Source: a virus. Taken from it: a DNA stretch of 26,476 nt. Below, in pieces: positions 4,330 through 26,140 of the stretch (positions within the stretch are counted from its first letter, which is position 1; every line of letters starts with the position of its first letter). Made by a program: the position numbers and the translations under genes. Below the pieces are notes generated by a model that saw only the letters and a list, made by a program, of their open reading frames with translations, did no database searches and was not told where the DNA came from. The stretch spans positions 1-26,476 of IMG/VR virus record IMGVR_UViG_3300024348_002002; one strand, 5' to 3'.

Positions 4330-4343
4330 AAATCTGGTCTTAT

Positions 4344-4415: not shown

Positions 4416-4421
4416 CCTAAT

Positions 4422-4493
4422 GGGAGTATAGCTTAATGGTTAGAGCGGGCTCCTTATAAGGGCTTAGTCTGGGTTCAACTCCCAGTATTCCCA
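4422..4493 (+). tRNA. tRNA-Ile (anticodon TAT), copy 2
   Basis: The acceptor is GGGAGTA (4422-4428) with TATTCCC (4486-4492). The D stem is GCTT/GAGC. The anticodon loop 4453-4459 is again CTTATAA, and the T arm is CTGGG-TTCAACT-CCCAG. The body differs from the preceding TAT tRNA, so it is not a recent duplicate. Confidence 0.85.
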
Positions 4494-4495
4494 TC

Positions 4496-4569
4496 GCTCG
4501 TTTAGCCATCTGGTGAAGGCAGCGTTCTCATAAAGCGCCGTAGGAAGAGTTCGATTCTCTCAACGAGCA
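4496..4569 (+). tRNA. tRNA with anticodon CAT (Met, or Ile2 if lysidine-modified)
   Basis: The acceptor is GCTCGTT (4496-4502) with AACGAGC (4562-4568). The anticodon loop 4527-4533 is CTCATAA, and the T loop is TTCGATT with one mismatch at the outer T-stem pair. It could be elongator Met or an Ile2 tRNA whose C34 is converted to lysidine. The sequence alone does not decide. Confidence 0.85.
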
Positions 4570-7897: not shown

Positions 7898-8648
7898 TAT
7901 GCTAGCACTGAAAAGTTTTATCAATGAACCTCACTGTGATCTTGGATCTAATGCTTGGGTTCTTGCTGATCTCGTTGAAAAGTATAAGAATGCAAGGTTT
8001 ATTGATCTTGGCGTAAGACTTGGAGCTTCTTCAGCAATCTTATCTATTGACGCAGAAAAGAATAACAATCAAGTTTGTGGTTGTGATTTGATGTTCACTG
8101 GATTTCAAAATAATGGAGCAAAGTTTGTAAATGAAAATTACATCTGCTATATGGCAGATAGCGTGACCCTTGGAAAGAACTGGGATGAGGATCCTTTTGA
8201 TATTATTTTTGTCGATACCATTCATACGAGGGAGCAAGTTCTAGCAGAACTTTATTTTTGGAGTAATCATATCAAAGAGGGTGGATACTTTGTTTTTCAT
8301 GATTCTCATTGGGAGGGTCCTGGAGATGTTATTGGAGGAAAACAGTGGGAACGCATTGATGTTGCTGTTACTGATTTCTTTGGTCTTCCTAAGAGTGTCC
8401 GCGAAATGGATCAATATGAAGATGAAAATATTCGCCTAGAACATTACACTCCAAGTTATGGAATGACTTTTGTTCAAGTTAAATCTCTTGATGCCATTGA
8501 AAAATTCAAGAGTAATGTTAATTGGGAGGAAGTATTTGAAATTCGTAACTGGTTGAATGATCTCCATTTCAACAGAAGTAATCCAAACTTTGTTGATTGG
8601 AATCAAGATATTGAAAACATCGAAAACGAACTAGTAATTAATCCATGA
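7890..8648 (+). CDS. Class I SAM-dependent methyltransferase-like protein
   Basis: About 252 residues. The segment ARFIDLGVRLGASSAIL matches motif I of Rossmann methyltransferases (DxGxxxGxS), and DIIFVDTIHTREQVLAELYFW and GGYFVFHDSHW match the later strands of the Methyltransf_24-type family found in sugar operons. It probably O- or N-methylates a sugar or attaches to a glycan precursor. The ATG at 7890 is preferred over 7881 because GGAG (7876-7879) is then 10 bases upstream rather than 1. It overlaps its neighbours by 8 and 4 bases. Confidence 0.7.
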   Translation: MTDMLALKSFINEPHCDLGSNAWVLADLVEKYKNARFIDLGVRLGASSAILSIDAEKNNNQVCGCDLMFTGFQNNGAKFVNENYICYMADSVTLGKNWDEDPFDIIFVDTIHTREQVLAELYFWSNHIKEGGYFVFHDSHWEGPGDVIGGKQWERIDVAVTDFFGLPKSVREMDQYEDENIRLEHYTPSYGMTFVQVKSLDAIEKFKSNVNWEEVFEIRNWLNDLHFNRSNPNFVDWNQDIENIENELVINP

Positions 8649-9466
8649 CTTGCTCAGTATCGCATTGGAGTGGGAGACTTGGAAATAATATTCAACAAGT
8701 CGCCAATTGTATAATGAGAGCAGAACTTACTGGTGATGCTTTTTATCAAAAACTAAGTCACGAAATTATTAAAAAGTTTGTTTTAAATTTTGGTAGAGAG
8801 GAATCTTCTGAAGAGTATGAAGGTAGGTTTTATTCCTGGGAGCCACTTGTCCACTGCGAAAAGGGAATATTTGAAGGTGGTAATGAAATTGGTGTAGATA
8901 AAGATTACGTATATCAAAATATTAGACGTGTTTGTAGGAACTATATCATTCATCATTTGGATATTGTTGAAAAGGATGTGATTGGTGATGATACTGTTGT
9001 TATGCATCTTAGGAGCGGTGATAACTATCATCGAGTATTTGATCCACCAACCAATTACATTCCAAATCCATTAATTTACTATCTAAACTTGATTGATTCA
9101 TTTGATAAATGTATCTTAGTTACTGAACCTGATAGAGAAAATCCAATAGTTCATGAGTTGATGAAGATTGATAAAGTTCAAATTCAATCCTTAGATGTTA
9201 AGTCTGATTTTTCAACACTTCTATCCGCTAAAAATCTTGCTCTATCTGGTGTTGGAACTTTTGCTGTGGCAGCAGCACTGTGCTCTAAGAATATTGAAAA
9301 TCTCTTTACTACAGATTTGCTGTTGACTGAGCACCTAAATTATAGTATGCTGTTCGATACAGATGTCAATGTGCATGTGATGGAGTTGGAAAATTATCTT
9401 TCCGTTTTCCCGTGCAGTTGGAAAAATACTGAAGAGCAAAGAAAGTTTATTTTAGAATATAGATGA
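8645..9466 (+). CDS. GT11/fucosyltransferase-like glycosyltransferase
   Basis: A 273-residue protein. The N-terminal GRLGNNIQQVANC is the LGNxxFQ-type motif of alpha-1,2-fucosyltransferase-like enzymes. VVMHLRSGDNY is the HxRxGD nucleotide-binding motif, where the Arg contacts GDP-sugar. The C-terminal half (LSGVGTFAVAAALCS) resembles the family's third motif. It is divergent from the other three copies in this operon, so it probably has its own acceptor. It overlaps both neighbours by 4 bases (ATGA). Donor inferred to be GDP-L-fucose or GDP-L-galactose. Confidence 0.7.
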   Translation: MTCSVSHWSGRLGNNIQQVANCIMRAELTGDAFYQKLSHEIIKKFVLNFGREESSEEYEGRFYSWEPLVHCEKGIFEGGNEIGVDKDYVYQNIRRVCRNYIIHHLDIVEKDVIGDDTVVMHLRSGDNYHRVFDPPTNYIPNPLIYYLNLIDSFDKCILVTEPDRENPIVHELMKIDKVQIQSLDVKSDFSTLLSAKNLALSGVGTFAVAAALCSKNIENLFTTDLLLTEHLNYSMLFDTDVNVHVMELENYLSVFPCSWKNTEEQRKFILEYR

Positions 9467-10455
9467 AAATTTTTGTAACTGGATGCGCCGGGTTACTTGG
9501 TGCCAATTATACAAGACACTTACTTTCTAATGGTCATCAAGTTGTTGGTATTGATGACTTATCCGGCGGATATAAAGCTTTTGTTCCTAAAACAGAAAAT
9601 TTTACTTTTGTCAAATTTGATCTAGAAAGAAGAAAAAAAGTCGTTGAGTTATTTGAAGAGCATAAACCAGATGTTCTTTTGCACTTTGCTGCTTATGCTG
9701 CTGAAGGATTGTCTCCGTTCATTCGTAATTTTAATTATAGAAATAATCTCATTTGTTCAGCAAACCTGATCAATGAGTGTATTACTCACGAGACTAAATT
9801 TATTTTTACTTCAAGTATGGCAGTTTATGGTGAACAAGAACCGCCATTTACTGAAGATAAACGCCCTCAACCAATTGATCCTTACGGTATTGCGAAGTAT
9901 GCAGTTGAGTGTGATTTAAAACTTGCTCACGAACAATTTGGTCTTAGATACAATATTGTTAGACCACATAATGTTCTTGGTATCTATCAAAACATCTGGG
10001 ATAAGTATCGTAATGTAATTGGTATTTTTATTAGAAAAACTTTGAATAGTGAACCAATTTTGGTTTATGGTGATGGAGAACAGACCCGTGCTTTCTCAGA
10101 TATCAAATATTATATGGAACCATTTGATAAACTTCTAACAGATTATGATGGAGAAATTTTTAACATTGGTGCTGATAGATATTTTACCTTGAATGAAGTT
10201 GCAGAAGCAGTTCAAAGAATTGGTAAAAGATATGGATATGAAGTACCAATAGAACACGGTGAACCAAGACACGAAGTTAAACATGCTTATTGCGATCATA
10301 CAAAAGCAAAAACTATGCTAGACTTTAAAGATGAAACTAATCTTGAGGAGTTAATTGATAGTATGTTTGTTTGGGCAATGAAGCAACCGAATAGAAAAGT
10401 TAAGAAAATGGATTATGAGGTCACAAAAGACATTTACGATTATTGGAGAAATTGA
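9463..10455 (+). CDS. NAD-dependent UDP-sugar epimerase (GalE-like)
   Basis: A 330-residue extended SDR. GCAGLLGANY is the NAD motif, IDDLSGGY follows the second strand, and VLLHFAAYAAEGLSP, FTSSMAVYGE and the catalytic YGIAK (YxxxK) are as in UDP-glucose 4-epimerases and related UDP-glucuronate enzymes. VYGDGEQTRAFSDIKY is the substrate-binding stretch. The C-terminal 30 residues are longer than in GalE. The product may be a UDP-hexose or, because a UDP-glucose dehydrogenase lies at 19201, a UDP-uronic acid. The substrate is not resolvable by eye. The stop overlaps the next start (TGATG). Confidence 0.82.
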   Translation: MKIFVTGCAGLLGANYTRHLLSNGHQVVGIDDLSGGYKAFVPKTENFTFVKFDLERRKKVVELFEEHKPDVLLHFAAYAAEGLSPFIRNFNYRNNLICSANLINECITHETKFIFTSSMAVYGEQEPPFTEDKRPQPIDPYGIAKYAVECDLKLAHEQFGLRYNIVRPHNVLGIYQNIWDKYRNVIGIFIRKTLNSEPILVYGDGEQTRAFSDIKYYMEPFDKLLTDYDGEIFNIGADRYFTLNEVAEAVQRIGKRYGYEVPIEHGEPRHEVKHAYCDHTKAKTMLDFKDETNLEELIDSMFVWAMKQPNRKVKKMDYEVTKDIYDYWRN

Positions 10456-11081
10456 TGTTACTAAGTTTTAATTCCTTGATTAAAAAGTATAATATAAACA
10501 TCACTGGAGTTATTCACGTTGGTGGGCATATTGGAGATGAACTTCATGAGTATAAAACAAATGGAGTAGAAAATATTATTATTTTTGAACCTCAACTTCA
10601 CTGCTTTGAAAAACTTTCTGCAAAAGCAAAGGAGGTTGAATTGCCTGCTAAACTTGTTAATAAAGCACTTGGCAACAAAAATGGTAGAATTGAAATGATA
10701 TCAGATCCTACTGGTCTATGTGGTTCTATTCTTAAACCTAAACTTCACCTAGAGTTATCTCCCGACGTTATTTTTTCTGAAACCTTGGATGTAGAAATTT
10801 CCAGACTTGATGATGAAATTCCAAAAAACCATACTTATAATTTTTTAAATATGGATACTCAAGGATATGAGTTGGAAGTTCTAAAGGGAGGAATAAAAAC
10901 TTTAGAAAAAATTGATTATGTTTATACTGAAGTAAATCAAGCAGAGGTTTATGAAAATAATGCAATGATTGATGAGTTGGATGAATTTCTGTTAGACTAT
11001 AATATTGAAAGAGTTGATACTGGTTGGCATGGATCACAAACTTGGGGAGATGCTTTTTATATTAAGAGAGGGTTGATTTGA
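10455..11081 (+). CDS. FkbM-family methyltransferase
   Basis: A 208-residue SAM-dependent methyltransferase. GVIHVGGHIGDE is motif I, NIIIFEPQ carries the acidic end of strand 2, and the family signature NMDTQGYELEVLKGG is clear. C-terminal motif: DTGWHGSQTWGDAFYIKR. FkbM enzymes methylate hydroxyls of sugars and polyketides. Here a sugar O-methylation capping or modifying the glycan is likely. The ATG at 10455 is chosen because GGAG lies 6 bases upstream and it forms TGATG with the preceding stop; an in-frame TTG at 10443 is less likely. Confidence 0.85.
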   Translation: MLLSFNSLIKKYNINITGVIHVGGHIGDELHEYKTNGVENIIIFEPQLHCFEKLSAKAKEVELPAKLVNKALGNKNGRIEMISDPTGLCGSILKPKLHLELSPDVIFSETLDVEISRLDDEIPKNHTYNFLNMDTQGYELEVLKGGIKTLEKIDYVYTEVNQAEVYENNAMIDELDEFLLDYNIERVDTGWHGSQTWGDAFYIKRGLI

Positions 11082-11938
11082 TGAGGGTATTTGATTCTTT
11101 TATTTTTTTTAATGAATTAGAATTATTGGAAATGCGTCTCAATATCTTAAATGATGTTGTAGATTATTTTGTTCTTACCGAATCTCCATTTACTGTAAGT
11201 GGAAATGAAAAACCACTTTATTACCTAGAAAATAAAGATAAATTTTCTAAATGGAATGATAAGATCGTTCATCATGTGACTGAAGAAATTCCTAATGATT
11301 TCAGTCATATGATGAATAAGACTAAGCATCATGTTGCATATAATGATGTTGATCCTTACGGAACTAAGTTTATAGATCTTCCCATACGTTTTCAAAGAGC
11401 TTTGTATAATAGGAACAATAGTGCCTTTGGAATTGAAAAAGCAGGAGCAACTGAGGATGATCTAATTATTACCAGTGATGCTGATGAAATTATCAATCCA
11501 TATGTTCTGGAAGATCTTTCTTGGTTTAATTCAAACAATCATTATCTTGCAGTTTGTAATGCATACTACTACAAGTTAAATTTCTTGTATCAGGATGATT
11601 GGATGGGATCTAGACTTTGTACTTGGAAACATCTAAAAAATACTACGATTGATCAACTTCGACAAGATCATTCTAATGCTTATAAGATTGAAAATGCTGG
11701 TTGGCATTTCAGTTTTCTTGGCAATGCCGAAAACTTTAAACTAAAGTTGGCATCATATGAACACACAGAAAACAATACAACAGAAGTTTTATCTAATGCT
11801 GAAGAGAAGGTAGAGAATGGTCTTGACCCTCTTAATAGGGGAATGACATACAGAGCAGTTCCCATCGATGATACCTATCCAGAATACATTCAAAATAATC
11901 AAAAGAAATATTCAGAGTTTATTAAAAAATGGAACTGA
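11081..11938 (+). CDS. GT17-family glycosyltransferase (MGAT3-like)
   Basis: A 285-residue protein beginning MRVFDSFIFFNELELLEMRLNIL in two pieces: the FxFFNELELLExRL start, the VLTESPFTVSGNEKPLYY stretch and DDLIITSDADEI (acidic metal and nucleotide-sugar site) are hallmarks of family GT17, whose eukaryotic member adds bisecting GlcNAc. Late motif: NAGWHFSFLG. It probably transfers an N-acetylglucosamine-type sugar to a mannose- or galactose-like acceptor, but donor and acceptor are inferred from the family. It overlaps the next gene by 10 bases. Confidence 0.82.
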   Translation: MRVFDSFIFFNELELLEMRLNILNDVVDYFVLTESPFTVSGNEKPLYYLENKDKFSKWNDKIVHHVTEEIPNDFSHMMNKTKHHVAYNDVDPYGTKFIDLPIRFQRALYNRNNSAFGIEKAGATEDDLIITSDADEIINPYVLEDLSWFNSNNHYLAVCNAYYYKLNFLYQDDWMGSRLCTWKHLKNTTIDQLRQDHSNAYKIENAGWHFSFLGNAENFKLKLASYEHTENNTTEVLSNAEEKVENGLDPLNRGMTYRAVPIDDTYPEYIQNNQKKYSEFIKKWN

Positions 11939-12858
11939 TTGAAGGTGTAGCATTATCGCAGTTATGTGATTATTCTTTTGGTGATCAATCTGGGAAGTGG
12001 GGCAATATTTGCACTTCCTTTATGAAAGAAGCGAATTTAACTAATACTGAATTTGTAACTAAGTTATTTGATATAAAGAAAAGTCGTAATTATATGACTT
12101 TGTTTATTGACAATATTCGTTTATATAAAAGAACTATTGTTGAAGTAAGTGAAAGTGATAAAGAGTATATAAACTCTCTTCATCAAAAAAATGACTTACT
12201 GCACCTTTGTTCTTGTTTCCCAGATATAAAGTTTATTATCTTCACTAATCTTGAGGATACACCTACAGATGATTATATCTTTGATTTGATCCCTGATAAT
12301 GTAGTTTGTATATCTGCTGTTAATGCGGTTTCTTTTGGCGGAAAGGTAACTCCTGCTCCTTATGGAGTGCAGAGAAGAATGTCTCCATCGGATAAAAGAA
12401 TTGAAGATTTGAAATCTTATATGAAAAATCTTCCACAAAATCCTTCAGGTCTTTTGTATGTAAGTCACAATGAAAATTCCCACTCCGAAAGAATGGGAAT
12501 AAAGGATTTTTTCAATGGAAAAGATTGGGTTGGGGTTCATGATAAGAGAGTTACTTACTCGGTATTTCTTTACAATCTAAGTCAATCTAAGTTTATGGTT
12601 TGCCCTAGAGGAAATGCTATAGACTGCCATCGAAACTGGGAAGTTCTTTATATGAGAAGAGTTCCTATTATGAAAAAGCATCCATACCTACTTGAGTTAT
12701 ATAAAGACTATCCTGTTTTATTTGTTGATGAATATTCCAAAGTTACCAAAGAACTTTTAATTGAGAATGATTATTTGTTTCAACAAGCTCAGACTATGGA
12801 TTTAAGTGGACTTGATTTAAATAACTTTTTTAATAAAACATTGGAGAGTTGTTTATGA
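11929..12858 (+). CDS. Exostosin-like (GT47-type) glycosyltransferase
   Basis: A 309-residue protein. The C-terminal half carries SKFMVCPRGNAIDCHRNWEV and LYMRRVPIM in sequence. This is the exostosin-type pattern CPRGxxxDxHRxWE...G/R-x-VPI, followed by FVDEYSKVT. The N-terminal half has no clear motif and may bind the acceptor. Exostosin-like enzymes make glycosidic bonds from UDP-glucuronate or UDP-sugars, which would fit the UDP-glucose dehydrogenase in the same operon. Overlaps of 10 and 4 bases with neighbours. Family call moderate, substrate unknown. Confidence 0.65.
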   Translation: MELIEGVALSQLCDYSFGDQSGKWGNICTSFMKEANLTNTEFVTKLFDIKKSRNYMTLFIDNIRLYKRTIVEVSESDKEYINSLHQKNDLLHLCSCFPDIKFIIFTNLEDTPTDDYIFDLIPDNVVCISAVNAVSFGGKVTPAPYGVQRRMSPSDKRIEDLKSYMKNLPQNPSGLLYVSHNENSHSERMGIKDFFNGKDWVGVHDKRVTYSVFLYNLSQSKFMVCPRGNAIDCHRNWEVLYMRRVPIMKKHPYLLELYKDYPVLFVDEYSKVTKELLIENDYLFQQAQTMDLSGLDLNNFFNKTLESCL

Positions 12859-13589
12859 ATTTTTTGTGTATCTCGAACTATAGTAATGATTTGGATTGGG
12901 TGTCAGATTTTCCCAATCCACATTTGATATATGATAAAACTTGGGCTGGTGGAGTTGCCGATAATGATAATTCTGGTCTTATCCCACCATCCAATTTAAA
13001 AGAAAAATATCCGAGTTATAATATTACTAATGGTGATCCTAATGGTTATAATATTAGTGATTATATGACTTTTATTATTGACCATTATGATAATCTCCCT
13101 GACGTAGTTTGTTTTGTCAAAGGAAACACTATTGGCAGGCACGTAAGTAAAGAAGTCTTTGATAGATTAATCAACAATAAATGCTTTACTCCCATTGAGG
13201 ATTGGAAGTCTCACGATCCAAATCAACAAGCATTGCTAAATGGATATGCAATGATATCTTGCGATGGTGGGTGGATGGAAACGAATGATAGTTGGTATTT
13301 AAATCATCCCAAGCATCCAACAAAGTATTTTAAAAACTATAATGATTTTCTTAGATTTTGTTTTAAAGATCCGATACTTCCAAAGTATGTAAGATTTCCT
13401 CCAGGTGGAAATTTTGTTGTACCAAAAGAATATATCTTAAAGTATGATAAAATTTTCTATCAAAATCTAAGAACATTTACTAGGCACACTAGAGTTTCTG
13501 GTGAAGGTCAAATGATAGAAAGAGCATTGTTTACGATTTGGATTGGTAACTTTGAAGTAGCAAATACTATGAGAGAATTGGTATGTTAG
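12855..13589 (+). CDS. DUF3431-like putative glycosyltransferase
   Basis: About 244 residues. The order SDYMTFIIDHYDNLPDVVCFVKGN, split as YMTFIIDHYDNLPD and VVCFVKGN, then FPPGGNFVVPKEYILKYDKIFY late in the protein (GxxFxVxKExI), matches DUF3431-type proteins found in polysaccharide loci. No catalytic assignment is established. ATG 12855 follows GGAGAG (12843-12848) and overlaps the previous stop (ATGA). Its place inside a glycosyltransferase run suggests glycan assembly. Confidence 0.6.
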   Translation: MNFLCISNYSNDLDWVSDFPNPHLIYDKTWAGGVADNDNSGLIPPSNLKEKYPSYNITNGDPNGYNISDYMTFIIDHYDNLPDVVCFVKGNTIGRHVSKEVFDRLINNKCFTPIEDWKSHDPNQQALLNGYAMISCDGGWMETNDSWYLNHPKHPTKYFKNYNDFLRFCFKDPILPKYVRFPPGGNFVVPKEYILKYDKIFYQNLRTFTRHTRVSGEGQMIERALFTIWIGNFEVANTMRELVC

Positions 13590-14473
13590 CAACTGAATTT
13601 ATTCACGGTCAGGGATTAGGAAATCAATTATTTTGTTATGTAGCAACTAGGATGTTGGCACATAAACTTGGATATGATTTTGGTATTGGTGGACTTAGAA
13701 ATGCTGGAGATTCTAGAGTAAATAAAAAAGGTTTTTACTTTATGAATCTTGATTATGGTAAGGAAGTTCCTGATGGATTGGCACGATATGATGAATATCG
13801 TCACGGTGCTTTTACGGATTCTTGGATAAAAACTGATATTAGACTTACTGATAAAAATCTTTTTACATTGCCGGATGATACTATAATATATGGTAACCTT
13901 CAGTCTGAAGAATATTTTTGCAATAGACTTGATCTTGTTAAAGATTGGTTAAAAGTCGGACAAGAATATGAGCATATGGATACCAACGGAAAAAATATCT
14001 GTGTTATGAATTTCCGTGGCGGCGATATGGTTGGAAATGCTGGTGGATTTGTTCCCAGATCATATTGGTTAAAAGCAATTGACAATATGCTTCAGTACAA
14101 TTCAAATATGGAGTTCTGTATTGTAACTGATGATGTTAAAACCGCAAACGCAATGCTTCCAGAATACCCAGCCTATCATGAAGATGTTGCTTGGGATTAT
14201 GTTGCGATTAAAAATGCTAGGAATGTAATTTGCTCAACATCCACATTTGCTTGTTTTCCACTTTGGACTAGTAAAACTTTAGAGTATTGTATTGCTCCTA
14301 AGTATTGGTTTCACCATAACTTATCTAAGGGATGGTGGAGTCTTGGGTGTAGCATATATAGTTTCCCCACTCACTATATGGATAGAGATGGGAAACTCTT
14401 TACACCCGAAGAATGTGTGATAGAATGGGAAGAGTATAAAAATACTTCAAACATATATGACGGCGATTTATGA
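13583..14473 (+). CDS. GT11 (alpha-1,2-fucosyltransferase-like) glycosyltransferase
   Basis: A 296-residue protein. GQGLGNQLFCYVATRMLA near the N-terminus is the canonical GxLGNQLFQYA-type motif. VMNFRGGDMV is the donor-binding motif with Arg and Asp kept but the leading His replaced by Asn-Phe context. ICSTSTFACFPLWTS corresponds to the NSTFSWW region. The C-terminal extension EEYKNTSNIYDGDL is polar. It is clearly GT11-like yet distant from the pair at 15171 and 17523. It probably transfers a 6-deoxy- or L-galactose residue from a GDP-sugar. It overlaps by 7 and 4 bases. Confidence 0.78.
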   Translation: MLATEFIHGQGLGNQLFCYVATRMLAHKLGYDFGIGGLRNAGDSRVNKKGFYFMNLDYGKEVPDGLARYDEYRHGAFTDSWIKTDIRLTDKNLFTLPDDTIIYGNLQSEEYFCNRLDLVKDWLKVGQEYEHMDTNGKNICVMNFRGGDMVGNAGGFVPRSYWLKAIDNMLQYNSNMEFCIVTDDVKTANAMLPEYPAYHEDVAWDYVAIKNARNVICSTSTFACFPLWTSKTLEYCIAPKYWFHHNLSKGWWSLGCSIYSFPTHYMDRDGKLFTPEECVIEWEEYKNTSNIYDGDL

Positions 14474-15174
14474 TAGAATTACCTGATGTAACATTAGTTT
14501 CTATTGATACTACTTCGAACTTGGATGGCACTCTTCGTGCTTTGTATACCAGTATGAATAGTATTAAGTATGGGTCTGTTAAATTAATAACAACCGAAGA
14601 GCAGATTGAAAGATATCAATCTCAATTAGAAGATGAAGGAATAGTTCTAGAAGTTCCTGTAACAGAAATTAAAGATTACAATGATTACAATTATTATGTG
14701 ATCTATAATCTTGGAAAGCATGTAAATACATCTCATTGTTTATTGGTGCAACCAGATGGATTTGTTCTATTCCCAGAAAAGTGGGACAACTCTTGGTTGG
14801 AATATGATTATATTGGAGCTCCTTGGGCATATGTAGAAGATGCTTATATCGATCCCTTTGGTAATCATCATCGTGTTGGTAATGGAGGTTTCTCTTTAAG
14901 AAGCAAAAAATTTCTTGATGTACCAACAAAAGTAGAAGTTCCTTGGGAGACTAATAACAGTGACTTCTATTGGATGCCAGAGGGTGTTGTAAATTATCAC
15001 GAAGATGGAAATGTGTGCGTTCATAATAGACATATTTTTATTGAACAAGGATGTAAATATGCTCCAGTAGAAGTTGCTGTTAGATTTTCACAAGAGACAA
15101 GAGTCCCAGAATGTGAGGGAATAACCCCATTTGGATTTCATTATCGTTTACCCCCAGGAGTTGAATTAGAATGA
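14470..15174 (+). CDS. DUF5672-type glycosyltransferase-like protein
   Basis: A 234-residue protein. The core HCLLVQPDGFVLFPEKWDN, followed by YDYIGAPW and VGNGGFSLRSKKF, is typical of DUF5672 proteins, which occur in surface-polysaccharide loci and resemble GT-A glycosyltransferases. The QPDGF segment would stand for the acidic donor site, and GNGGFSLRS for the acceptor loop. A late CEGITPFGFHY closes the domain. It overlaps both neighbours by 4 bases (ATGA). Enzymatic activity is inferred from the family only. Confidence 0.75.
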   Translation: MIELPDVTLVSIDTTSNLDGTLRALYTSMNSIKYGSVKLITTEEQIERYQSQLEDEGIVLEVPVTEIKDYNDYNYYVIYNLGKHVNTSHCLLVQPDGFVLFPEKWDNSWLEYDYIGAPWAYVEDAYIDPFGNHHRVGNGGFSLRSKKFLDVPTKVEVPWETNNSDFYWMPEGVVNYHEDGNVCVHNRHIFIEQGCKYAPVEVAVRFSQETRVPECEGITPFGFHYRLPPGVELE

Positions 15175-15974
15175 TCGGACATAATCACATTGGTAAGAAC
15201 GGAAGATTTGGTAATCAAATGTTCCAATACGCAGCAACAAGAGGTATTGCTGCTGCTCGCGGATATGACTTTATTATTCCGGATGGACCTAAAACTGATG
15301 ATGAGTTTTATAATGAGGAGCAGCAACATAAACTCTTTATGGCGTTTAAGATGTCTGGTCTTAAAAATGTTGGTATGCTAGATGCGGGATATAAGCAAGA
15401 AAGTTCTTTCAGATATGACAAAGAACTAGTAAAACGTTGTCCTGATAACATTAACCTTTATGGATATTTCCAATCAGAACGATATTTTTTTCACATTGAA
15501 GAAGAACTTCGCAAGGACTTTACTTGGCGTGATGATGTTTGGAATATGTGCAAAGAAATTTTTGATAGTATTATCCCAGAAGGTAATGCTATTTCACTAC
15601 ACGTTCGTAGAACAGATCATCTTGTAAAGTCTTCTTTCCACCCAGTTCTTCCTCTGAGTTATTATGAGGAAGCACTATCTAAATTTGATAAGTCTCTTCC
15701 TGTTCTTGTTTTTTCGGATGATCCTAAATGGTGCAATGAACAAGAGTTCTTTAGTGATGATAGGTTTTTGATTTCTGAAGGTGGCGATAATATTACTGAT
15801 ATGTGTATGATGAGTATGTGTCAGTATCAGATTATCGCAAATTCTACTTTCTCTTGGTGGGGTGCTTGGTTATCTAAATCTGATAATGTCATTGCCCCCA
15901 AACTATGGTTTGGTCCTGATGGAGAAGATCCAACTGATATCTATGTTGATCGTTGGGAGTATCTAGATGTCTGA
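15171..15974 (+). CDS. GT11 alpha-1,2-fucosyltransferase-like enzyme, variant donor motif
   Basis: A 267-residue GT11 protein. GRFGNQMFQYAATRGIA is the first motif, LYGYFQSERYF the second, and NSTFSWWGAWLS the third, followed by IAPKLWFGP. The donor-binding HVRRGD motif reads LHVRRTDHL, with Gly replaced by Thr; Arg and Asp are kept. It is clearly paralogous to the protein at 17523, which has the standard motif. The substitution might tune donor choice, for example for L-galactose rather than L-fucose, but this is speculation. It overlaps by 4 and 8 bases. Confidence 0.85.
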   Translation: MIGHNHIGKNGRFGNQMFQYAATRGIAAARGYDFIIPDGPKTDDEFYNEEQQHKLFMAFKMSGLKNVGMLDAGYKQESSFRYDKELVKRCPDNINLYGYFQSERYFFHIEEELRKDFTWRDDVWNMCKEIFDSIIPEGNAISLHVRRTDHLVKSSFHPVLPLSYYEEALSKFDKSLPVLVFSDDPKWCNEQEFFSDDRFLISEGGDNITDMCMMSMCQYQIIANSTFSWWGAWLSKSDNVIAPKLWFGPDGEDPTDIYVDRWEYLDV

Positions 15975-16731
15975 AATTTCTGTATGTATCCCTACCTATG
16001 AATACAAGGGTGAGGGTGTAAAATATCTTGACGAATTATTCAAGTCTCTATCAACACAAACCTTTCAAGATTTTGATATTGTGATATCCGATCATAGTCA
16101 AGATCAATCTATTATGGACTATTGTAGAGATACTGAATATGATTTTGACATTACGTATATTCAAAATCCAAATGGTAGGGGATATCAATCACCAAATACT
16201 AATTGTGCTTTAGAAAATGCTGAAAGTAAAATTTTAAAAATCATCTATCAAGATGATATATTTGTAGATGATCAGGCTTTAGAAAAAATAAAAAATGCAT
16301 TTGATAAAACAAACTGCAAGTGGTTGTTTCATGGATTTACGCATACGACTGATGGAATAGAAACTCATAGAGATTGTGTTCCTAGATGGTCTGATATGAT
16401 GCTTGAAGGTAGGAATTTATTGGGAAGTCCATCTTGTGTTGCGATGCTGAATGAATGTAAAATGTATATGGATGAAAATATAAAACTCTTAATTGATACT
16501 GAGTTATATCACAGAATGAGAATGGAGTATGGAGCACCTGAAATAATTTCTGATATCTTGATTGCCAATAGAGAGCATTCTGGAAGAACAAGCTCTAGTG
16601 GTATTGACTATGATGCTCAAATAGATCATCCTGAAGGTGGGTGGTTAGTTAATAGATCTGAACTAGAATATATTGAAGCAAAACACAAAACGTTCTGTAG
16701 GGGTGGGAGAAAATATCCAGATGAGAATTGA
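15967..16731 (+). CDS. GT2-family glycosyltransferase
   Basis: A 254-residue GT-A enzyme. SVCIPTYEYKGEGVKYLDEL with DFDIVISDHSQDQS forms the N-terminal nucleotide-binding part, and KIIYQDDIFVDD carries the DxD-like metal site (QDD). PNTNCALENAESKI matches the GxNxxLxxAxG region. Late residues LIDTELYHRM and EHSGRTS belong to the acceptor half. GT2 enzymes invert configuration and use UDP- or GDP-sugars. The overlap is 8 bases upstream and 11 downstream. Substrate unknown. Confidence 0.82.
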   Translation: MSEISVCIPTYEYKGEGVKYLDELFKSLSTQTFQDFDIVISDHSQDQSIMDYCRDTEYDFDITYIQNPNGRGYQSPNTNCALENAESKILKIIYQDDIFVDDQALEKIKNAFDKTNCKWLFHGFTHTTDGIETHRDCVPRWSDMMLEGRNLLGSPSCVAMLNECKMYMDENIKLLIDTELYHRMRMEYGAPEIISDILIANREHSGRTSSSGIDYDAQIDHPEGGWLVNRSELEYIEAKHKTFCRGGRKYPDEN

Positions 16732-17536
16732 TTTATCGGAAGCAACTTTTATCATTCCTATTCGTATTGAATCCCAAGATAGACTGCGTAATGTAATTAC
16801 TACAACAGCATTTCTTTTAGAAACTTTTGATACCAATATTATTATTAAAGAGGTGGATTATGAATCCATCTTTATTAGAGATGTTATTCCAGTATTAAAA
16901 GATTTTTATGATATTGATACTCATATCTCACATATCTTTGAAAAAAGTGATGAACCTCTTTTTCATCGTCAAAGAGTTTTAAATGAAATGCTTGTTGAAA
17001 CAAAAACTGAGATCGTAGTTAATTATGATTGCGATGTTCTTCTTCCTCTAGACTCTTATCATGAAGCATATCAATCTATCTTACATCACACTCACGATGT
17101 GATTTATCCTTATGGTCAGGGGATGTATCAGCGACAAGTAGAAGCAACGGATGAAATAGTTTCTCATTTTCTACAAACTGGGGATTTTAATTATCTTGAT
17201 GAACATTCAAAACTCCATACTTCAGATTTTGGGTGGGTTCAGTTTTTTAATAGAAAAGTTTATATTGAAGGTGGTATGGAAAATGAAAACTTTAAAGCTT
17301 ATGCTCCAGAAGACAAAGAAAGGTTTTACAGATTCACTGCATTGGACTATAATGTAGGAAGAATTCAAGACTTTGTTTATCATTTGGAACATTCAAGAGG
17401 TCAAAATTCTTGGTTTACCAACCCTCATATGCAAAGCAATATAGGGGAATGGGAAAAAATTCAAAAAATGAATAAGGAACAATTACTAGAATATTATTCA
17501 AATCAAGATTATCTTAAAAAATATGTTAGCATTTAA
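16721..17536 (+). CDS. GT-A glycosyltransferase (GT2/GT7C-like)
   Basis: A 271-residue protein. ATFIIPIRIESQDRLRNV opens a GT-A fold, VVNYDCDVLLP contains the DxD metal site (DCD), and DFGWVQFFNRKVYIEGGMEN with KAYAPEDKERFYRF resembles the C-terminal galactosyltransferase domain (GxxGWGxED-type) of GT7/polypeptide GalNAc transferases. The ATG at 16721 lies in the previous gene and gives an 11-base overlap; a longer in-frame version would bury 48 more bases in it. Probably adds a hexose or N-acetylhexosamine. Confidence 0.75.
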   Translation: MRIDLSEATFIIPIRIESQDRLRNVITTTAFLLETFDTNIIIKEVDYESIFIRDVIPVLKDFYDIDTHISHIFEKSDEPLFHRQRVLNEMLVETKTEIVVNYDCDVLLPLDSYHEAYQSILHHTHDVIYPYGQGMYQRQVEATDEIVSHFLQTGDFNYLDEHSKLHTSDFGWVQFFNRKVYIEGGMENENFKAYAPEDKERFYRFTALDYNVGRIQDFVYHLEHSRGQNSWFTNPHMQSNIGEWEKIQKMNKEQLLEYYSNQDYLKKYVSI

Positions 17537-18380
17537 TCAAATTGGAAATCTGGGTAGACTTGGAAACCAAATGTTCGAGTATGCTGCTCTGAGGGGAATT
17601 GCTTCTCGTCATGGATACGATTGGTGTGTTCCTCCTTATAGTAAAAAGGGTATTGAAAATTACAGTCTTCATTACTGTTTTAAGTTAGAATCTGTAAAGG
17701 AAGATAATCTAAATTATCTCGATCATTATCAGTATGTGCAAGAAAGGTCTTTTCATTTTGATGAAGAACTTTTTGAAAATTGTCCAGACAATGTGAGTCT
17801 TCATGGATTTTTTCAATCGGAAAAATATTTTAAACATATCTCCGATGAAATCCGTAAAGACTTTACTTTTCACGATGAACATCTTGGACCTTGTAGAGAA
17901 ATGATGGACACTCTTGATGGACAAGAACCTATTATGCTTCATGTTCGTCGTGGTGATCCTAATCTTGTAGATCCTCGTGGATTTAAATGGAGTTATACCC
18001 AATGTGGCGATCAACATCCCGTTCAACCTCTTGAGTATTATGAGAAAGCTTTATCCGAATTTGACGATGATCAACCTGTAGTTGTTTTTTCAGATTCTCC
18101 CGAATGGGTAAAAGAGCAAGAGTTTTTCTCTAGCGATCGTTTCTTAATTTCAGAACCACATGAAAAATATGAAGATGGGTCATATACTCCATATGCAGAT
18201 TTATGCTTGATGTCTTTGTGTTCTCATGCTATTGTTGCTAACAGTAGCTTAAGTTGGTGGGGTGCTTGGTTAATTTCGAATCCTAATAAAAAAGTCATTG
18301 CACCAAAAATGTGGTTCGGTCCTGCATATGCTGATAAGGATACAAAAGACCTTTATTGTCCTGAATGGAAAGTATTATGA
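17523..18380 (+). CDS. GT11 alpha-1,2-fucosyltransferase-like enzyme
   Basis: A 285-residue GT11 protein with all family motifs intact: GRLGNQMFEYAALRGIA, LHGFFQSEKYF, LHVRRGDPN (HVRRGD donor motif) and NSSLSWWGAWLI, then IAPKMWFGP. It is paralogous to the protein at 15171, sharing motif order and an almost identical IRKDFT segment. About 15 extra residues lie after HVRRGD. It probably transfers L-fucose or, given the GDP-mannose 3,5-epimerase in the operon, L-galactose. It overlaps neighbours by 14 and 4 bases. Confidence 0.87.
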   Translation: MLAFNQIGNLGRLGNQMFEYAALRGIASRHGYDWCVPPYSKKGIENYSLHYCFKLESVKEDNLNYLDHYQYVQERSFHFDEELFENCPDNVSLHGFFQSEKYFKHISDEIRKDFTFHDEHLGPCREMMDTLDGQEPIMLHVRRGDPNLVDPRGFKWSYTQCGDQHPVQPLEYYEKALSEFDDDQPVVVFSDSPEWVKEQEFFSSDRFLISEPHEKYEDGSYTPYADLCLMSLCSHAIVANSSLSWWGAWLISNPNKKVIAPKMWFGPAYADKDTKDLYCPEWKVL

Positions 18381-21261: not shown

Positions 21262-22725
21262 ATGAAACTCAAACAACTGATGCTTGCACCTGTTGCTCTG
21301 GGAATGGTTGCTCCTGCTGCGATTGCCGCAGATCTTAATATGAATGGGGTCAACCAATATTCCGCTGAGCAGGTCACAAGCGTCACTCAATTCTCTGATG
21401 TTCGTCCTACCGATTGGGCATATCAGGCACTTAGCAACCTCGTGGAGCGTTACGGTTGCGTTGCTGGTTATCCTAACGGTACCTTTGGTGGTGGACGTGC
21501 GATGACCCGTTACGAGGCAGCAGCACTCCTTAATGCTTGCCTGGATCGGGTAACTGAAGTTACCGACGAACTCAAGCGTCTCCAAGCAGAGTTTGCTACT
21601 GAACTAGCAACCCTTCGTGGTCGTGTAGATGGTTTGGAAGCACAAGTTGCTGAACTTGAAGCAACTCAATTCTCTACTACAACTAAACTGCGTGGTGAAG
21701 CAAACTTTGTTCTTGGTGGTGTTGATGACTACCAGACAAAAGGTGGTGATGTAACTCACACCACATTCAATTATGATCTTCGTCTGAACCTGGATACTTC
21801 GTTCACTGGTAAGGATCTGCTCCGTACTCGTCTGCGTTCTTCTAATTTCAGTGGGGATCCTTTCGGTTCCAGTTCTTCAATCTTTAAACTGGATAAAGCA
21901 GATAATACTACCAGCGAAGTTGGTAACAATGTAGTTATCGATCGTCTGTATTATTCATTCCCCGCCTTTAATAATAAAGCAACCATTACTGCTGGTGCTG
22001 CTGTTCGTAACACTGAAATTGCTTGGATTCCTTCAGCATATGAATCCAAGATCCTTGACTTCTTCCAAGTAGCAGGTGCTCCTGGTGTTTATAACAAGGC
22101 AACTGGTGCTGGTTTTGGTATCCAGTATGGTACTAAAGGTCTTGTTGCTGGTGTAAACTATGTGGCACAGAATGGTGCTGATAGTTCTACTGGTGAGTTT
22201 GATCGTTCTGGTGCCCTGAATACTCTTGCACAAATCGGTTATCGTGGTACTAATTGGGGTGCTGCTTTTGGTTATCGTTACGGTACTGAAGGAACTCGTG
22301 TACGTACCTACAACGGTCTGAACGGTGCTTCTGGTGCTCTTGCACCTGGTCAAACCTCTAACGGATATGCTATCAACGCATATTGGGAACCCACTCAATC
22401 TGGTTGGGCTCCTTCGATCTCAGCAGGTTATGGTTGGAACACTGTAAGTGGAACTCAAAGTGATGCTACTAACAGTCAATCCTGGTTTGCTGGTCTAACT
22501 TGGGACGATGTATTTGTTGATGGCAACTCTGCAGGTGTTGCTATCGGTCAAGCACCTACTGGTGAGAACCTTGAGAAGTCAACTCTTCTTGAAATCTTCT
22601 ACAAGTATCAAGTGTCTGATAACATCAGTGTCACTCCTGCTATCATTTACGGAAGTGACAATCAGCGCCTTGCTGGCAACTCCTCTAACTGGGGTGGTGT
22701 AATTCAGACCACATTCAAGTTCTGA
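21262..22725 (+). CDS. Cyanobacterial-type outer-membrane porin (SLH domain plus OprB-like barrel)
   Basis: A 487-residue exported protein. A signal peptide (about 1-22, ending AIA-AD) is followed by one SLH domain (about 40-95, with FSDVRPTDWAYQAL, YGCVAGYPNGTF and AMTRYEAAALLNAC). A heptad-like coiled coil (about 97-137, LKRLQAEFATELATLRGR) comes next, then a beta-barrel of alternating strands ending in FKF, the terminal aromatic needed for outer-membrane insertion. This is the layout of picocyanobacterial Som-type porins, where the SLH domain anchors to peptidoglycan-linked polymer. Codons here use more C/G than in the AT-rich neighbours, suggesting acquisition from a host. It has its own promoter and terminator. 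Likely roles are altered small-solute uptake or replacement of host porins that serve as phage receptors. Confidence 0.88.
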   Translation: MKLKQLMLAPVALGMVAPAAIAADLNMNGVNQYSAEQVTSVTQFSDVRPTDWAYQALSNLVERYGCVAGYPNGTFGGGRAMTRYEAAALLNACLDRVTEVTDELKRLQAEFATELATLRGRVDGLEAQVAELEATQFSTTTKLRGEANFVLGGVDDYQTKGGDVTHTTFNYDLRLNLDTSFTGKDLLRTRLRSSNFSGDPFGSSSSIFKLDKADNTTSEVGNNVVIDRLYYSFPAFNNKATITAGAAVRNTEIAWIPSAYESKILDFFQVAGAPGVYNKATGAGFGIQYGTKGLVAGVNYVAQNGADSSTGEFDRSGALNTLAQIGYRGTNWGAAFGYRYGTEGTRVRTYNGLNGASGALAPGQTSNGYAINAYWEPTQSGWAPSISAGYGWNTVSGTQSDATNSQSWFAGLTWDDVFVDGNSAGVAIGQAPTGENLEKSTLLEIFYKYQVSDNISVTPAIIYGSDNQRLAGNSSNWGGVIQTTFKF

Positions 22726-23187: not shown

Positions 23188-23397
23188 ATGACTGTTACGA
23201 AAAATGAGTTCGGGCAAATGAATATGTTTGCTAAAGAACCTGCGATGTATATGACTAAGGAAGACCTTGATCGTTATGGCATCGAACCCTATGCAGAAAA
23301 AGCGGAGAAAATGAATGGACGTTGGGCTATGCTCGGTATTATTGCTGGGGCTCTTTCTTATAGTCTCACTGGCAAACTCTTCTTCGGTATCTTCTGA
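23188..23397 (+). CDS. hli: High-light-inducible protein
   Basis: A 69-residue member of the chlorophyll a/b-binding superfamily with one membrane helix. The helix motif AEKMNGRWAMLGIIAG (38-53) has the Glu, Asn and Arg that bind chlorophyll and pair helices. A polar N-terminal region of about 37 residues precedes it. Such proteins dissipate excess light energy and protect newly made photosystem II, and cyanophages carry them to keep photosynthesis going during infection. First gene of a group under the promoter at 23133. Confidence 0.93.
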   Translation: MTVTKNEFGQMNMFAKEPAMYMTKEDLDRYGIEPYAEKAEKMNGRWAMLGIIAGALSYSLTGKLFFGIF

Positions 23398-23410
23398 CAA
23401 CTGATTGACA

Positions 23411-23497
23411 ATGACTTCAATTATCTTTACAATGACTTCAGTTGCCTTCTTCGTACTGTTGGCAGCATCCGTAGAAAAACTTTGTGAAACTTACTAA
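23411..23497 (+). CDS. 28-residue membrane peptide
   Basis: A tiny hydrophobic protein ([14 protein letters not shown], then [14 protein letters not shown]) with one membrane span and a short polar tail. It begins 13 bases after hli, and its TAA overlaps the petF ATG (TAATG), which supports translation. The 12-base sequence ACAATGACTTCA occurs twice (23408 and 23429), so the peptide could start at either Met, the second being a direct repeat. It resembles small photosystem-type subunits in size only; function unknown. Confidence 0.55.
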
Positions 23498-23790
23498 TGA
23501 CCGTTTTTAATGTCACTCTCCAATCCCCTGATGGCACCGAAACCACCATTGAGTGTCAAGATGATCAGTACATTCTTGAAGCAGCAGAAGAGGCAGGTGT
23601 TGACCTCCCCTCATCGTGTAAAGCAGGCGCTTGCTCTGCTTGTGCAGGAAAACTCATCTCTGGCACCGTTGATAACGAAGAACAATCGTTCCTTGATGAT
23701 GAACAACAAGCAGAAGGTTGGGTTCTCACTTGCGTTGCTTATCCCACAAGTGATTGTGTGATCCTTACTGAACAGGAAGAAAATCTGTGA
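23497..23790 (+). CDS. petF: Plant-type [2Fe-2S] ferredoxin
   Basis: A 97-residue electron carrier of photosynthetic type. The cluster ligands are C41, C46, C49 and C79, in the order [13 protein letters not shown]...LTCVAYP, the exact CX4CX2CX29C spacing. The protein is acidic, as needed to dock with photosystem I and ferredoxin-NADP reductase. In infected cells it could steer electrons to phage-favoured enzymes such as bilin reductases or ribonucleotide reductase. It overlaps the preceding peptide by one base and the next gene by four. Confidence 0.94.
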
Positions 23791-24068
23791 GCACTGTTGG
23801 TATGCTCGGACAATTTGCCATTGCCCTCCAAGAACTTGGATGGGATGCTGATGATGAAATCTCCGTTGAGATTGGTGGTGTAGCAGTAACAGGAACTGCC
23901 ACCAGTCCAAATGCAAATCCAAAATGGGCAAAACCATTTGGAACAGTATCATATCAAAATGATGCCTTCATCGTAATTAAAAACAAATCAAGGAACCCCG
24001 TTGTTCCTTCACAACCAAATCCTGAACTTAAACAACAACACCCTTATAATGGAACACTCTCTAGTTGA
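23787..24068 (+). CDS. Small protein, unknown function, next to ferredoxin
   Basis: A 93-residue protein starting at GTG, overlapping the petF stop (GTGA). A compact N-terminal part ([31 protein letters not shown]) looks like a small beta-rich fold. The C-terminal third is low-complexity, rich in Pro, Asn and Gln ([13 protein letters not shown]). No membrane segment or cofactor motif. No family recognised. It overlaps the next gene by 20 bases. Confidence 0.7.
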
Positions 24069-24234
24069 ACTGCTGACTTACTATGTAATTGTTGCTGCTC
24101 TCTTTATTGGAGCACCTGCAGTATTTTTTACAATTGTCTTTATGCCTGCACTTATGAATACTAAGGGCGCAGTTGTTGGTTATAAAATTCACCGCGACTA
24201 TGGTGAAACATTTATCTATTCTAAAGTAAAATAA
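24049..24234 (+). CDS. Small membrane protein
   Basis: A 61-residue protein with one long hydrophobic stretch (LLTYYVIVAALFIGAPAVFF plus TIVFMPALM, residues about 9-37) that could form one long or two short spans. A polar, basic tail (GYKIHRDYGETFIYSKVK) follows. ATG 24049 is chosen because an in-frame upstream ATT/TTG start would lengthen an already 20-base overlap with the previous gene. It lies between ferredoxin and an hli gene, so a thylakoid location is possible. Function unknown. Confidence 0.65.
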   Translation: MEHSLVELLTYYVIVAALFIGAPAVFFTIVFMPALMNTKGAVVGYKIHRDYGETFIYSKVK

Positions 24235-24246
24235 AGGAGAAAAACA

Positions 24247-24366
24247 ATGAACAAAATTTTCACTGAAAAAGCAGAACGTATTAATGGTTGGGCAGCAATG
24301 ATTGGTATTGTTGCCGCAATGGGTTCTTATGCTATTACTGGTCAAATTATTCCCGGTGTATTTTGA
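24247..24366 (+). CDS. hli: Short high-light-inducible protein
   Basis: A 39-residue HLIP consisting of little more than the chlorophyll-binding helix: AERINGWAAMIGIVAAMGSYA keeps the ExxNGxxAMxG core, with Trp in place of the usual Arg after NG. This Arg-to-Trp change is seen at the position that normally makes the inter-helix ion pair, so pairing may differ. AGGAG lies 8 bases before the ATG. The peroxiredoxin gene follows after 11 bases. It is preceded, not overlapped, by the small membrane protein gene. Confidence 0.82.
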   Translation: MNKIFTEKAERINGWAAMIGIVAAMGSYAITGQIIPGVF

Positions 24367-24377
24367 TGGAGGTTACT

Positions 24378-24905
24378 ATGCGTAAAGAACAATATCAAGT
24401 TCCTCAAGTAGAATTTGTATTTCGCGAGAATGGGGAGTTTGTAAATCGTACTTCTTCAGAACTCTTCGATGGAAAGCGTGTGGTCCTGTTTAGTCTGCCT
24501 GGTGCTTTCACTCCTACTTGCAGTGCCTATCAGCTACCTGGATTCGAAGAGAAATATGAAGACTTTATTGGTAGTGGCATCGACGCTATTTACTGCATCT
24601 CTGTTAATGATGGGTTTGTAATGAATGCCTGGGCACAGGATCAGAATATCAAGAATGTAAAACTCATTCCAGACGGCAATGCATATTTCACACGTTCTAT
24701 GGGTATGCTCGTCACTAAGTCTAACCTTGGTTTCGGTGATCGCTCTTGGCGTTATGCTATGGTCTTGGATAACGGAATCATCGAAAAACTATTCGTTGAG
24801 GCAGGTCAGCGGGACAACGCAGACAGTGACCCTTACGAAGCAACTACTCCAGAGAATGTTCTGGACTACGTAAAATCTACAGTACGAGAAACAGTGACAG
24901 TTTGA
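24378..24905 (+). CDS. Peroxiredoxin (Prx5/AhpE-like thiol peroxidase)
   Basis: Reduces H2O2 and organic peroxides through a cysteine thiol. A 175-residue thioredoxin-fold protein whose peroxidatic motif PGAFTPTCSAYQLPGF places the active cysteine at C48 with Thr45. C73 (AIYCISVND) might serve as a resolving or auxiliary cysteine. VNDGFVMNAW and GDRSWRYAMVLDNG are family features. GGAGG (24368-24372) sits 5 bases before the ATG. It is the last gene of the hli-petF group and ends 4 bases before a terminator stem. It would protect the infected, still photosynthesising cell from peroxide, alongside the Dps-like protein. Phage-borne peroxiredoxins are uncommon in this group. Confidence 0.9.
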   Translation: MRKEQYQVPQVEFVFRENGEFVNRTSSELFDGKRVVLFSLPGAFTPTCSAYQLPGFEEKYEDFIGSGIDAIYCISVNDGFVMNAWAQDQNIKNVKLIPDGNAYFTRSMGMLVTKSNLGFGDRSWRYAMVLDNGIIEKLFVEAGQRDNADSDPYEATTPENVLDYVKSTVRETVTV

Positions 24906-24934: not shown

Positions 24935-24942
24935 CATAAATA
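24935..24942 (+). promoter_or_regulatory. Late promoter (CATAAATA) for the lysis genes
   Basis: It matches the NATAAATA late element, directly after the terminator and 23 bases before the ATG at 24966. Late timing fits a lysin. Confidence 0.72.
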
Positions 24943-24965: not shown

Positions 24966-25664
24966 ATGCTTATAGATCTCCATAACTTTTTTAAGTTTTA
25001 TGATGATACTAATCCCAAGCATCGTGCAGCAGTAGAACAATTTGAAAAAGATCTGCTTCTGAAAGCACAAGATCTGATGCAAGATGGGGCAAACTGGGTT
25101 AGAATCTATAGGAGTAAAGAAGACAAACCTCAAACCTCAATTTTACATGTTCCTTTCTATCCACAAACAGATAACTATAGAGATGCAAATAGAACTTGCA
25201 ATTCTTCTGCTTGTGCAATGTGTTTAGAGTATTTCAAACCTGGTACACTAAAAGGACCTAAGGGCGATGACGCCTATGTACAAAAAGTTTTCCAAATCGG
25301 CGACACAACTGATCACTTGGTTCAGACCAAGGTTCTTGCGTCATACGGCATTAAGTCCAGTTTCAGTTACAGCCTTACTTTTGCTGATCTTGATAGAGAG
25401 CTTGCCGCTGGTAGACCTGTTATTATTGGTATTCTTCATCGCGGTCCTCTATCTAACCCCACGGGAGGACATATGGTAGTGGTGATTGGCAAGACACCTT
25501 CGGGCGATTATGTTGTCAATGATCCTTATGGTTCATTGAATGATGGATACACTGGTTCGGTAAATAATGGTAAGGCTGCTGTTTATAAGAGAAGTGACCT
25601 TTCTCGTAGATGGTGTCCTGCAGGTAATGATGGATGGGGAAGAATTTTTGATGTAAAAAAGTAG
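24966..25664 (+). CDS. C39-like peptidase, 0-frame product of a putative two-domain lysin
   Basis: A 232-residue protein. After about 58 leading residues, a papain-like C39 domain begins (HVPFYPQTDNYRD). TCNSSACAMCLEYF carries the probable nucleophile C78, GGHMVVVIG the active-site His and VVNDPYG the third residue. C39-type domains in phage lysins cleave peptide bonds in the wall. The ATG 24966 is preferred over TTG 24954; both follow the late promoter. The gene ends DVKK-stop within A AAA AAG TAG, directly upstream of a 12-bp hairpin. The lysozyme domain continues in the -1 frame, so a 391-residue fusion is likely in part of the product. Confidence 0.82.
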   Translation: MLIDLHNFFKFYDDTNPKHRAAVEQFEKDLLLKAQDLMQDGANWVRIYRSKEDKPQTSILHVPFYPQTDNYRDANRTCNSSACAMCLEYFKPGTLKGPKGDDAYVQKVFQIGDTTDHLVQTKVLASYGIKSSFSYSLTFADLDRELAAGRPVIIGILHRGPLSNPTGGHMVVVIGKTPSGDYVVNDPYGSLNDGYTGSVNNGKAAVYKRSDLSRRWCPAGNDGWGRIFDVKK

Positions 25665-25699
25665 AAACGCCAACTAATAATGTTTCGTTAGTTGGCGTT
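25655..25699 (+). promoter_or_regulatory. Putative programmed -1 ribosomal frameshift site
   Basis: The slippery heptamer A AAA AAG (25655-25661) is in the correct 0-frame phase and is followed immediately by TAG. It lies 4 bases before a perfect 12-bp hairpin (25666-25677/25688-25699, 10-base loop). GGGGAAG (25636-25642) lies 12 bases upstream of the heptamer, like the internal Shine-Dalgarno that stimulates E. coli dnaX frameshifting. No T-run follows the hairpin, so it is not a terminator. The -1 frame is open from 25652 through the lysozyme domain. Confidence 0.7.
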
Positions 25700-26140
25700 G
25701 ATTTGATAAAGGAATTTGAGGGATGTCATTTAAATGCTTATCCCGATCCATTGACAGGTGGTCTTCCAATCACTATTGGTTGGGGAAGCACCAGAGATTT
25801 TAATGGTGACTATTTTAAACTTGGTAGAAAAATTACTCAAGAGTATGCGGACAAACTCTTAATTTTTGATATTGAACAAAGATTTCTTCCCCACCTGCAA
25901 AAAATACCTTACTGGAGTGAGATGAATGACAACCAAAGAGGGGCTTTACTTTCTTTTGCATATAATCTTGGTGCAGGTTTTTATGGTAATCCTAACTTCA
26001 ATACTATTACACGGGTCTTAAAGAATAAAGAATGGACTAAAGTTCCCGATGCTCTTTATCTTTATCGTAATCCTGGTAGTAACGTAGAGGCAGGACTTGC
26101 AAGGCGTAGAAAAGCAGAAGGTAAACTTTGGGGGTCTTAA
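25661..26140 (+). CDS. GH24 lysozyme domain (probably the -1 frameshift extension of the C39 peptidase)
   Basis: A muramidase domain that cleaves the MurNAc-GlcNAc bond of peptidoglycan. LIKEFEGCHLNAYPDP contains the catalytic Glu, ITIGWGST the conserved Thr/Gly motif, and RGALLSFAYNLGAGF with LARRRKAEGKLW the C-terminal helices. The frame is open back to 25652, and reading from GTA at 25661 adds the linker VETPTNNVSLVGVD. The only start in frame near the domain is TTG 25703, which has no Shine-Dalgarno, lies just after the hairpin and cuts off the first helix. I therefore annotate it as the C-terminal 159 residues of a frameshift fusion. If it is independently translated it would be a 145-residue lysozyme from 25703. 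Confidence 0.85.
   Translation, partial: VETPTNNVSLVGVDLIKEFEGCHLNAYPDPLTGGLPITIGWGSTRDFNGDYFKLGRKITQEYADKLLIFDIEQRFLPHLQKIPYWSEMNDNQRGALLSFAYNLGAGFYGNPNFNTITRVLKNKEWTKVPDALYLYRNPGSNVEAGLARRRKAEGKLWGS

Follow-up and report, generated by a model that had tools for sequence, protein, structure and literature searches.

The heptamer A_AAA_AAG is the natural shift site of dnaX, and PMC5009743 states that the polarity of dnaX is apparently reversed in a few bacteria, as in the locus described here, and that at efficiencies near 50% a single nucleotide change can switch which of the two products requires the shift. Tail assembly chaperone genes (lambda G/GT, SPP1 17.5/17.5*; PMC6316719, PMC10885494) carry, close to their 3' ends, a conserved programmed frameshift by which a fixed proportion of the product acquires a second domain. 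Among phage lysins, a 1994 lactococcal lysin with overlapping reading frames is cited among the genes known to contain a frameshift in the PRFect paper (PMC10885494). In mycobacteriophage Ms6, one gene, lysA, gives two endolysin lengths by means of an in-frame internal start for an embedded second endolysin (PMC3111421). We found no earlier description of a programmed frameshift joined to a lysozyme in cyanophages, in a search that left most subscription literature outside its reach, and neither endolysins nor lysozymes are mentioned in the portion consulted of a large review on recoding.

Here we analyze the window, a cyanomyovirus contig recorded in IMG/VR (26,476 bases), in which a programmed -1 ribosomal frameshift very probably joins a C39-like peptidase to a GH24 lysozyme (Table 1). 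The closest relatives of this locus are found in cyanomyoviruses, family Kyanoviridae. Like E. coli dnaX (gamma/tau), the locus has A_AAA_AAG, a 3' stem-loop a few nt further on and a stop adjoining the shift site, and is predicted to yield two products that differ in length and share their N-terminus. Unlike E. coli dnaX, whose long form arises without a shift, the window gene would make its long product by shifting; it encodes a phage lysis enzyme, its relatives use two other heptamers, and its Shine-Dalgarno (SD)-like GGGGAAG is not supported as a specific element. The likeness to dnaX drawn in the initial annotation holds for heptamer, stop and hairpin, is reversed in polarity and is not supported for the SD-like element. 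The tail assembly chaperone differs in being an assembly factor and not an enzyme, with an added part that is not a catalytic domain; the lactococcal lysin, as far as its citation goes, belongs to an unrelated host; and the window's frameshift, unlike the internal start of Ms6 lysA, would add a second catalytic domain. The mechanism is of a known kind; what appears new is that it serves to give a lysis enzyme a second catalytic domain and has been kept and re-made across a virus family.

Table 1. Features of the peptidase-lysozyme locus, in window coordinates
Feature	Position	Strand	Basis
C39-like cysteine peptidase ORF, zero frame, 232 residues	24966..25664	+	Pfam and PHROG matches
GGGGAAG, SD-like stretch, encodes conserved Trp-Gly-Arg	25636..25642	+	anti-SD pairing comparison
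Slippery heptamer A_AAA_AAG, in phase	25655..25661	+	sequence; silent positions invariant among relatives
-1 frame extension: linker plus complete GH24 lysozyme, 159 codons plus stop	25661..26140	+	Pfam
TAG, zero-frame stop directly 3' of heptamer	25662..25664	+	sequence
Predicted stimulatory hairpin, arms 25666-25677 / 25688-25699	25666..25699	+	folding, swap test, compensatory changes

The peptidase ORF ends in GTA AAA AAG TAG (25653-25664, with GTA at 25653, AAA at 25656 and AAG at 25659), and the open -1 frame extends from 25652 as far as a stop at 26138-26140. The initial annotation had placed heptamer, stop, hairpin, GGGGAAG and open -1 frame correctly to the base, had given the right lengths for both products, and had described the lysozyme as lacking a credible start: indeed, no ATG, GTG or TTG precedes the lysozyme core in the -1 frame of the window. 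The earliest start-type codon in that frame is a TTG at 25703, within DLIKEFEG, where other phages use different codons for the same Leu. The hairpin consists of 12 Watson-Crick pairs plus one U.G, and its 3' arm forms part of the lysozyme codons. Its minimum free energy is -18.5 kcal/mol, versus -7.2 for shuffled sequences (z -4.7), and none of 200 shuffles folded equally well. A transcription terminator was considered and rejected for this hairpin, which has no T-run downstream and is absent from a terminator scan.

We propose that a single mRNA is read through to the end of the C39-like peptidase, where two tRNA-Lys would re-pair one base back on A_AAA_AAG (tandem slippage), aided by the hairpin, whose first arm begins 4 nt downstream of the heptamer, with the adjoining stop codon perhaps contributing. 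Without a slip, translation would end at UAG and give the 232-residue peptidase; after a slip, it would continue in the -1 frame to a peptidase-linker-lysozyme of 391 residues (232 + 159). The N-terminal domain would be common to the short and long products.

Within the window, 36 ORFs were scanned for in-phase heptamers of the form X_XXY_YYZ (Y = A or T). The only in-phase A_AAA_AAG lies at the peptidase end, and the -1 frame following it is open for 159 codons, versus at most 28 after the other in-phase heptamers checked. The raw number of AAAAAAG strings was rejected as evidence, there being no excess in the window (16 seen versus 14.9 expected). Nor is GGGGAAG, 12 nt 5' of the heptamer, supported as a specific SD-like stimulator. 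Pairing with the anti-SD has a mean energy of -6.4 in frameshift loci, -6.1 where the lysozyme is separate and -7.1 without a lysozyme, so that peptidase genes with no lysozyme pair with the anti-SD equally well. The conserved Trp-Gly-Arg encoded at this point explains the SD-like stretch.

Both halves of the predicted long product belong to recognizable families. The peptidase matches Pfam Peptidase_C39_2 (PF13529; 1.9e-13, 51.7 bits, cut-off 24) as well as PHROG 3617 and the endolysin PHROG 10051, and Cys77, His168 and Asp185 (numbered as in L071), in that order, are nearly invariant among its relatives. The lysozyme matches Phage_lysozyme (PF00959; 1.6e-22, 80.6 bits, cut-off 22.3) and has a Glu-x8-Asp whose two residues, E256 and D265 in L071 numbering, are likewise nearly invariant. 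The small N-terminal domain of the peptidase ORF (about residues 1-50) has no Pfam match of its own; in phage records it is found in the peptidase family, with a second copy in the lysozymes of DSL-LC02 and DSL-LC03. A structure model of L071, a natural in-frame fusion, is of moderate confidence (pLDDT 71.6, pTM 0.43) and consists of a helical N-terminal part, a papain-like middle and a GH24 fold, with a low-confidence linker at residues 231-241, the site of the junction. In this model the peptidase has a fold match to the C39-like 3erv, and the best solved matches of the GH24 fold are phage endolysins such as P22 lysozyme. Because in-frame fusions of the two domains exist naturally, the long product is plausible. 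From family membership, both predicted activities would probably serve to cleave the cyanobacterial wall during lysis. The peptidase also has cellular relatives, in Arthrospira, Roseofilum and an Oscillatoriales genome; in Arthrospira and Oscillatoriales, the two for which downstream DNA was read, there is no heptamer at the peptidase end.

Relatives of the locus were drawn from phage records and IMG/VR scans by similarity to a handful of queries, and were sorted by the frame and distance of the lysozyme, with the heptamer playing no part in the sorting. In 99 loci, window included, the lysozyme lies close behind the peptidase in the -1 frame; most loci are metagenome contigs, and these counts are of non-identical, not independent, sequences. 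No ATG or GTG overlaps the peptidase stop in 85 of the 99, a proportion that, like those of the other arrangements, is not a population frequency, the loci having been gathered by similarity to few queries. Every one of these 85 loci has an in-phase slippery heptamer 0-2 codons from the stop (A_AAA_AAG in 73, C_CCA_AAG in 9, U_UUU_UUU in 3); the stop is the next codon in 75, follows one codon later in 7 and two codons later in 3. The same scan found a slippery heptamer in none of 156 loci where the lysozyme is separate or distant (0/120) or absent (0/36). This dependence of the signal on a lysozyme that has no start of its own and follows the peptidase in the -1 frame is evidence for a frameshift. 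On a tree of the peptidases the arrangements are interspersed, with 29 changes versus a minimum of 8, many of the nodes being weakly supported.

The same loci bear on translational coupling, in which ribosomes would restart near the peptidase stop at a rare or non-canonical codon and make a separate lysozyme. Coupling is what one might read into the remaining 14 of the 99 loci, S-SRM01 among them, where an ATG or GTG overlaps the stop in the lysozyme frame. However, 62 of the 85 loci without such an overlap have no ATG, GTG or TTG whatsoever ahead of the lysozyme core. Further, the overlapping-start relatives have no hairpin (the seven measured show no stem as a group), and three of them no longer have an intact heptamer (L048 and L345 without it, L339 with an altered one), so these loci look like a different solution, and we regard coupling in the window as very unlikely. 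The initial annotation had held that relatives whose lysozyme has its own start would speak against a frameshift; start-bearing relatives do exist, and a missing hairpin and an eroding heptamer are what loss of need predicts for them. A_AAA_AAG is nonetheless retained in 11 of the 14, and the heptamer alone is therefore no proof of use; a further point against the frameshift is that five of the 85 have some ATG farther upstream in the -1 frame.

Constraint on the heptamer was assessed in 56 non-redundant A_AAA_AAG junctions aligned on it. Upstream third codon positions (-28, -22, -19, -16, -13 and -10) vary, and those within the heptamer (A at -7, A at -4, G at -1) are invariant. The codon preceding the two lysines changes in its first two bases, specifying Ala, Val, Thr or Glu, and always ends in A; elsewhere in these ORFs, lysine is encoded by AAA 660 times and by AAG 399 times. 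Judged from these alignments, the constraint on the heptamer is on nucleotides and not on protein alone.

The hairpin follows the same pattern. Stem z has a median of 3.9 across 66 frameshift loci, of -0.1 across 7 overlapping-start loci and of -0.4 across 22 loci without a lysozyme. When 41 non-redundant loci exchange their 3' regions with one another, the total stem score falls from 996 to 624 ± 32 (z 11.8). Stem sequences and registers differ between groups, relative to the conserved Gly-Val-Asp/Glu-Leu codons of the 3' arm; within registers, two-sided changes affect 36 pairs, 80 cells in all, with compensatory changes exemplified by ATAC/GTAT in L019 and CGCC/GGCG in L344. Stems are weak in a few loci (L108, L109, L148). 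The comparison of relatives that the initial annotation had proposed thus bears it out, with heptamer, stop, hairpin and -1 phase kept together, and shows that the predicted slip signal, heptamer plus hairpin, is kept by selection in many cyanobacterial viruses.

Two further explanations concern the run of A itself. Transcriptional slippage would produce mRNAs with an extra A, to be read through as a fusion, and three contigs (L071, L073 and L084) do have seven A and are plain in-frame fusions with the hairpin kept, although they may be either real fusions or assembly errors. The run of six A is short, bacterial slippage having been described on runs of nine (PMC5009743), the C_CCA_AAG relatives have no such run, and a covarying hairpin right behind the heptamer is a requirement of ribosomal frameshifting; we consider transcriptional slippage extremely improbable. 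Homopolymer runs are also prone to errors, and a sequencing error or a decayed gene could make a plain fusion, or two plain genes, look like a frameshift. The relatives already refute this explanation, whose probability we take to be negligible: the architecture persists in 69 junctions (of the 85) that share less than 90% identity with one another, S-PM2 among them, and the likely catalytic residues are conserved in peptidase and lysozyme. Because S-PM2, in several deposited sequences, and dozens of distinct contigs share the arrangement, the possibility of a miscounted A raised at the outset does not apply.

The isolated phage S-PM2 (L001) has the arrangement of the window, with GCA AAA AAG TAA and a stem of AGCTCTACTTC/GGAGTAGAGCT. 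The annotation of its p157 'putative lysin' (L001:2476-2694) begins at a late ATG and covers 72 residues, omitting the Glu taken as active site. In S-CAM7 (L003) the heptamer is U_UUU_UUU, two more codons precede the stop and the stem is strong, and this phage clusters with in-frame fusions on the tree; gp246, its 'lysin' (L003:2259-2531), is likewise annotated as a truncated fragment from a late ATG. The proposed frameshift would account for both annotations and for the lack of an upstream start. The C_CCA_AAG group has a GC-rich stem.

Six in-frame fusions keep A_AAA_AAG and have a UGA in the -1 frame one codon later: L004 and L286-L288, which are fusions of ACG-2014f type, and L158 and L160. 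The hairpin is present in those measured (L004, L158 and L160), and another ACG-2014f isolate has an identical heptamer and UGA. In these six, a -1 slip would yield the short form, the polarity of E. coli dnaX. The case for this reading is strong for L158 and L160 (stem z 4-5), and only suggestive for the ACG-2014f type because fusions without a heptamer can also have TCTGA and because the stem z is 1.6. The presence of both predicted polarities within one family suggests a sizeable efficiency, and we infer that slippage occurs at a sizeable rate in the infected cell.

Other phages arrange the two domains differently. In S-CREM1 they are fused in the opposite order, and in DSL-LC02 and DSL-LC03 peptidase and lysozyme are separate genes. 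The lysozymes of these last two (L005:2524-3195 and L007:2083-2751) bear their own copy, about 50 residues long, of the peptidase N-terminal domain, for which a targeting role is a guess. In S-CRM01 (L009:2327-3636) the lysozyme frame is split near its C-terminus into two annotated genes, and the tblastn match comes in two pieces.

What the frameshift is for can be read in two ways. The chances are about even that selection acts on the making of both products, the peptidase by itself and the peptidase-lysozyme, and that cyanophages reach this pair by interchangeable routes: a frameshift to the long form on any of three heptamers, or, starting from an in-frame fusion, a frameshift that yields the short form. 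Overlapping starts, and separate genes that each have a copy of the N-terminal domain, would then be further routes with other outcomes. Alternatively, the frameshift is real and serves to keep lysozyme dose low or late, and the peptidase may serve a purpose other than the wall. C39-like peptidases without a lysozyme are present in many phages and cyanobacterial genomes, and the peptidase therefore has a use of its own; yet the two domains have been fused repeatedly and in both orders, which together with the PHROG endolysin name suggests joint action at the wall. We hold dose control to be possible but rather unlikely, and both products of the proposed frameshift probably act on the cell wall at lysis.

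If this is correct, lysis would be tuned in a new way, with slippage setting how much of an enzyme carries one activity and how much carries two, and a lysis enzyme would be added to the few phage genes in which a programmed frameshift is conserved. The variation among frameshifts, fusions and coupled starts would provide a ready comparative system for asking which ratio of products is required and how recoding signals come about, are lost and reverse their polarity. The proposal is directly testable in S-PM2.

The remainder of the window holds several features of separate interest. Eight tRNA genes lie at 94-4569 (Gly, Phe, Val, Ser, Pro, two Ile and Met, with none for Lys), and a long gene run at 5994-18380 resembles, by eye, sugar-nucleotide epimerases and glycosyltransferases. 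At 21262-22725 the phage contig encodes a porin of OprB type that has an S-layer homology domain, an outer membrane protein of cyanobacterial type. Upstream of the peptidase, ATAAATA at 24936-24942 looks like a T4-type late promoter core, a motif not above chance frequency in the window. Ferredoxin, peroxiredoxin and a small Hli-like ORF (23188-24905) also lie 5' of the peptidase, and the same kinds of gene precede the peptidases of DSL-LC02 and DSL-LC03.
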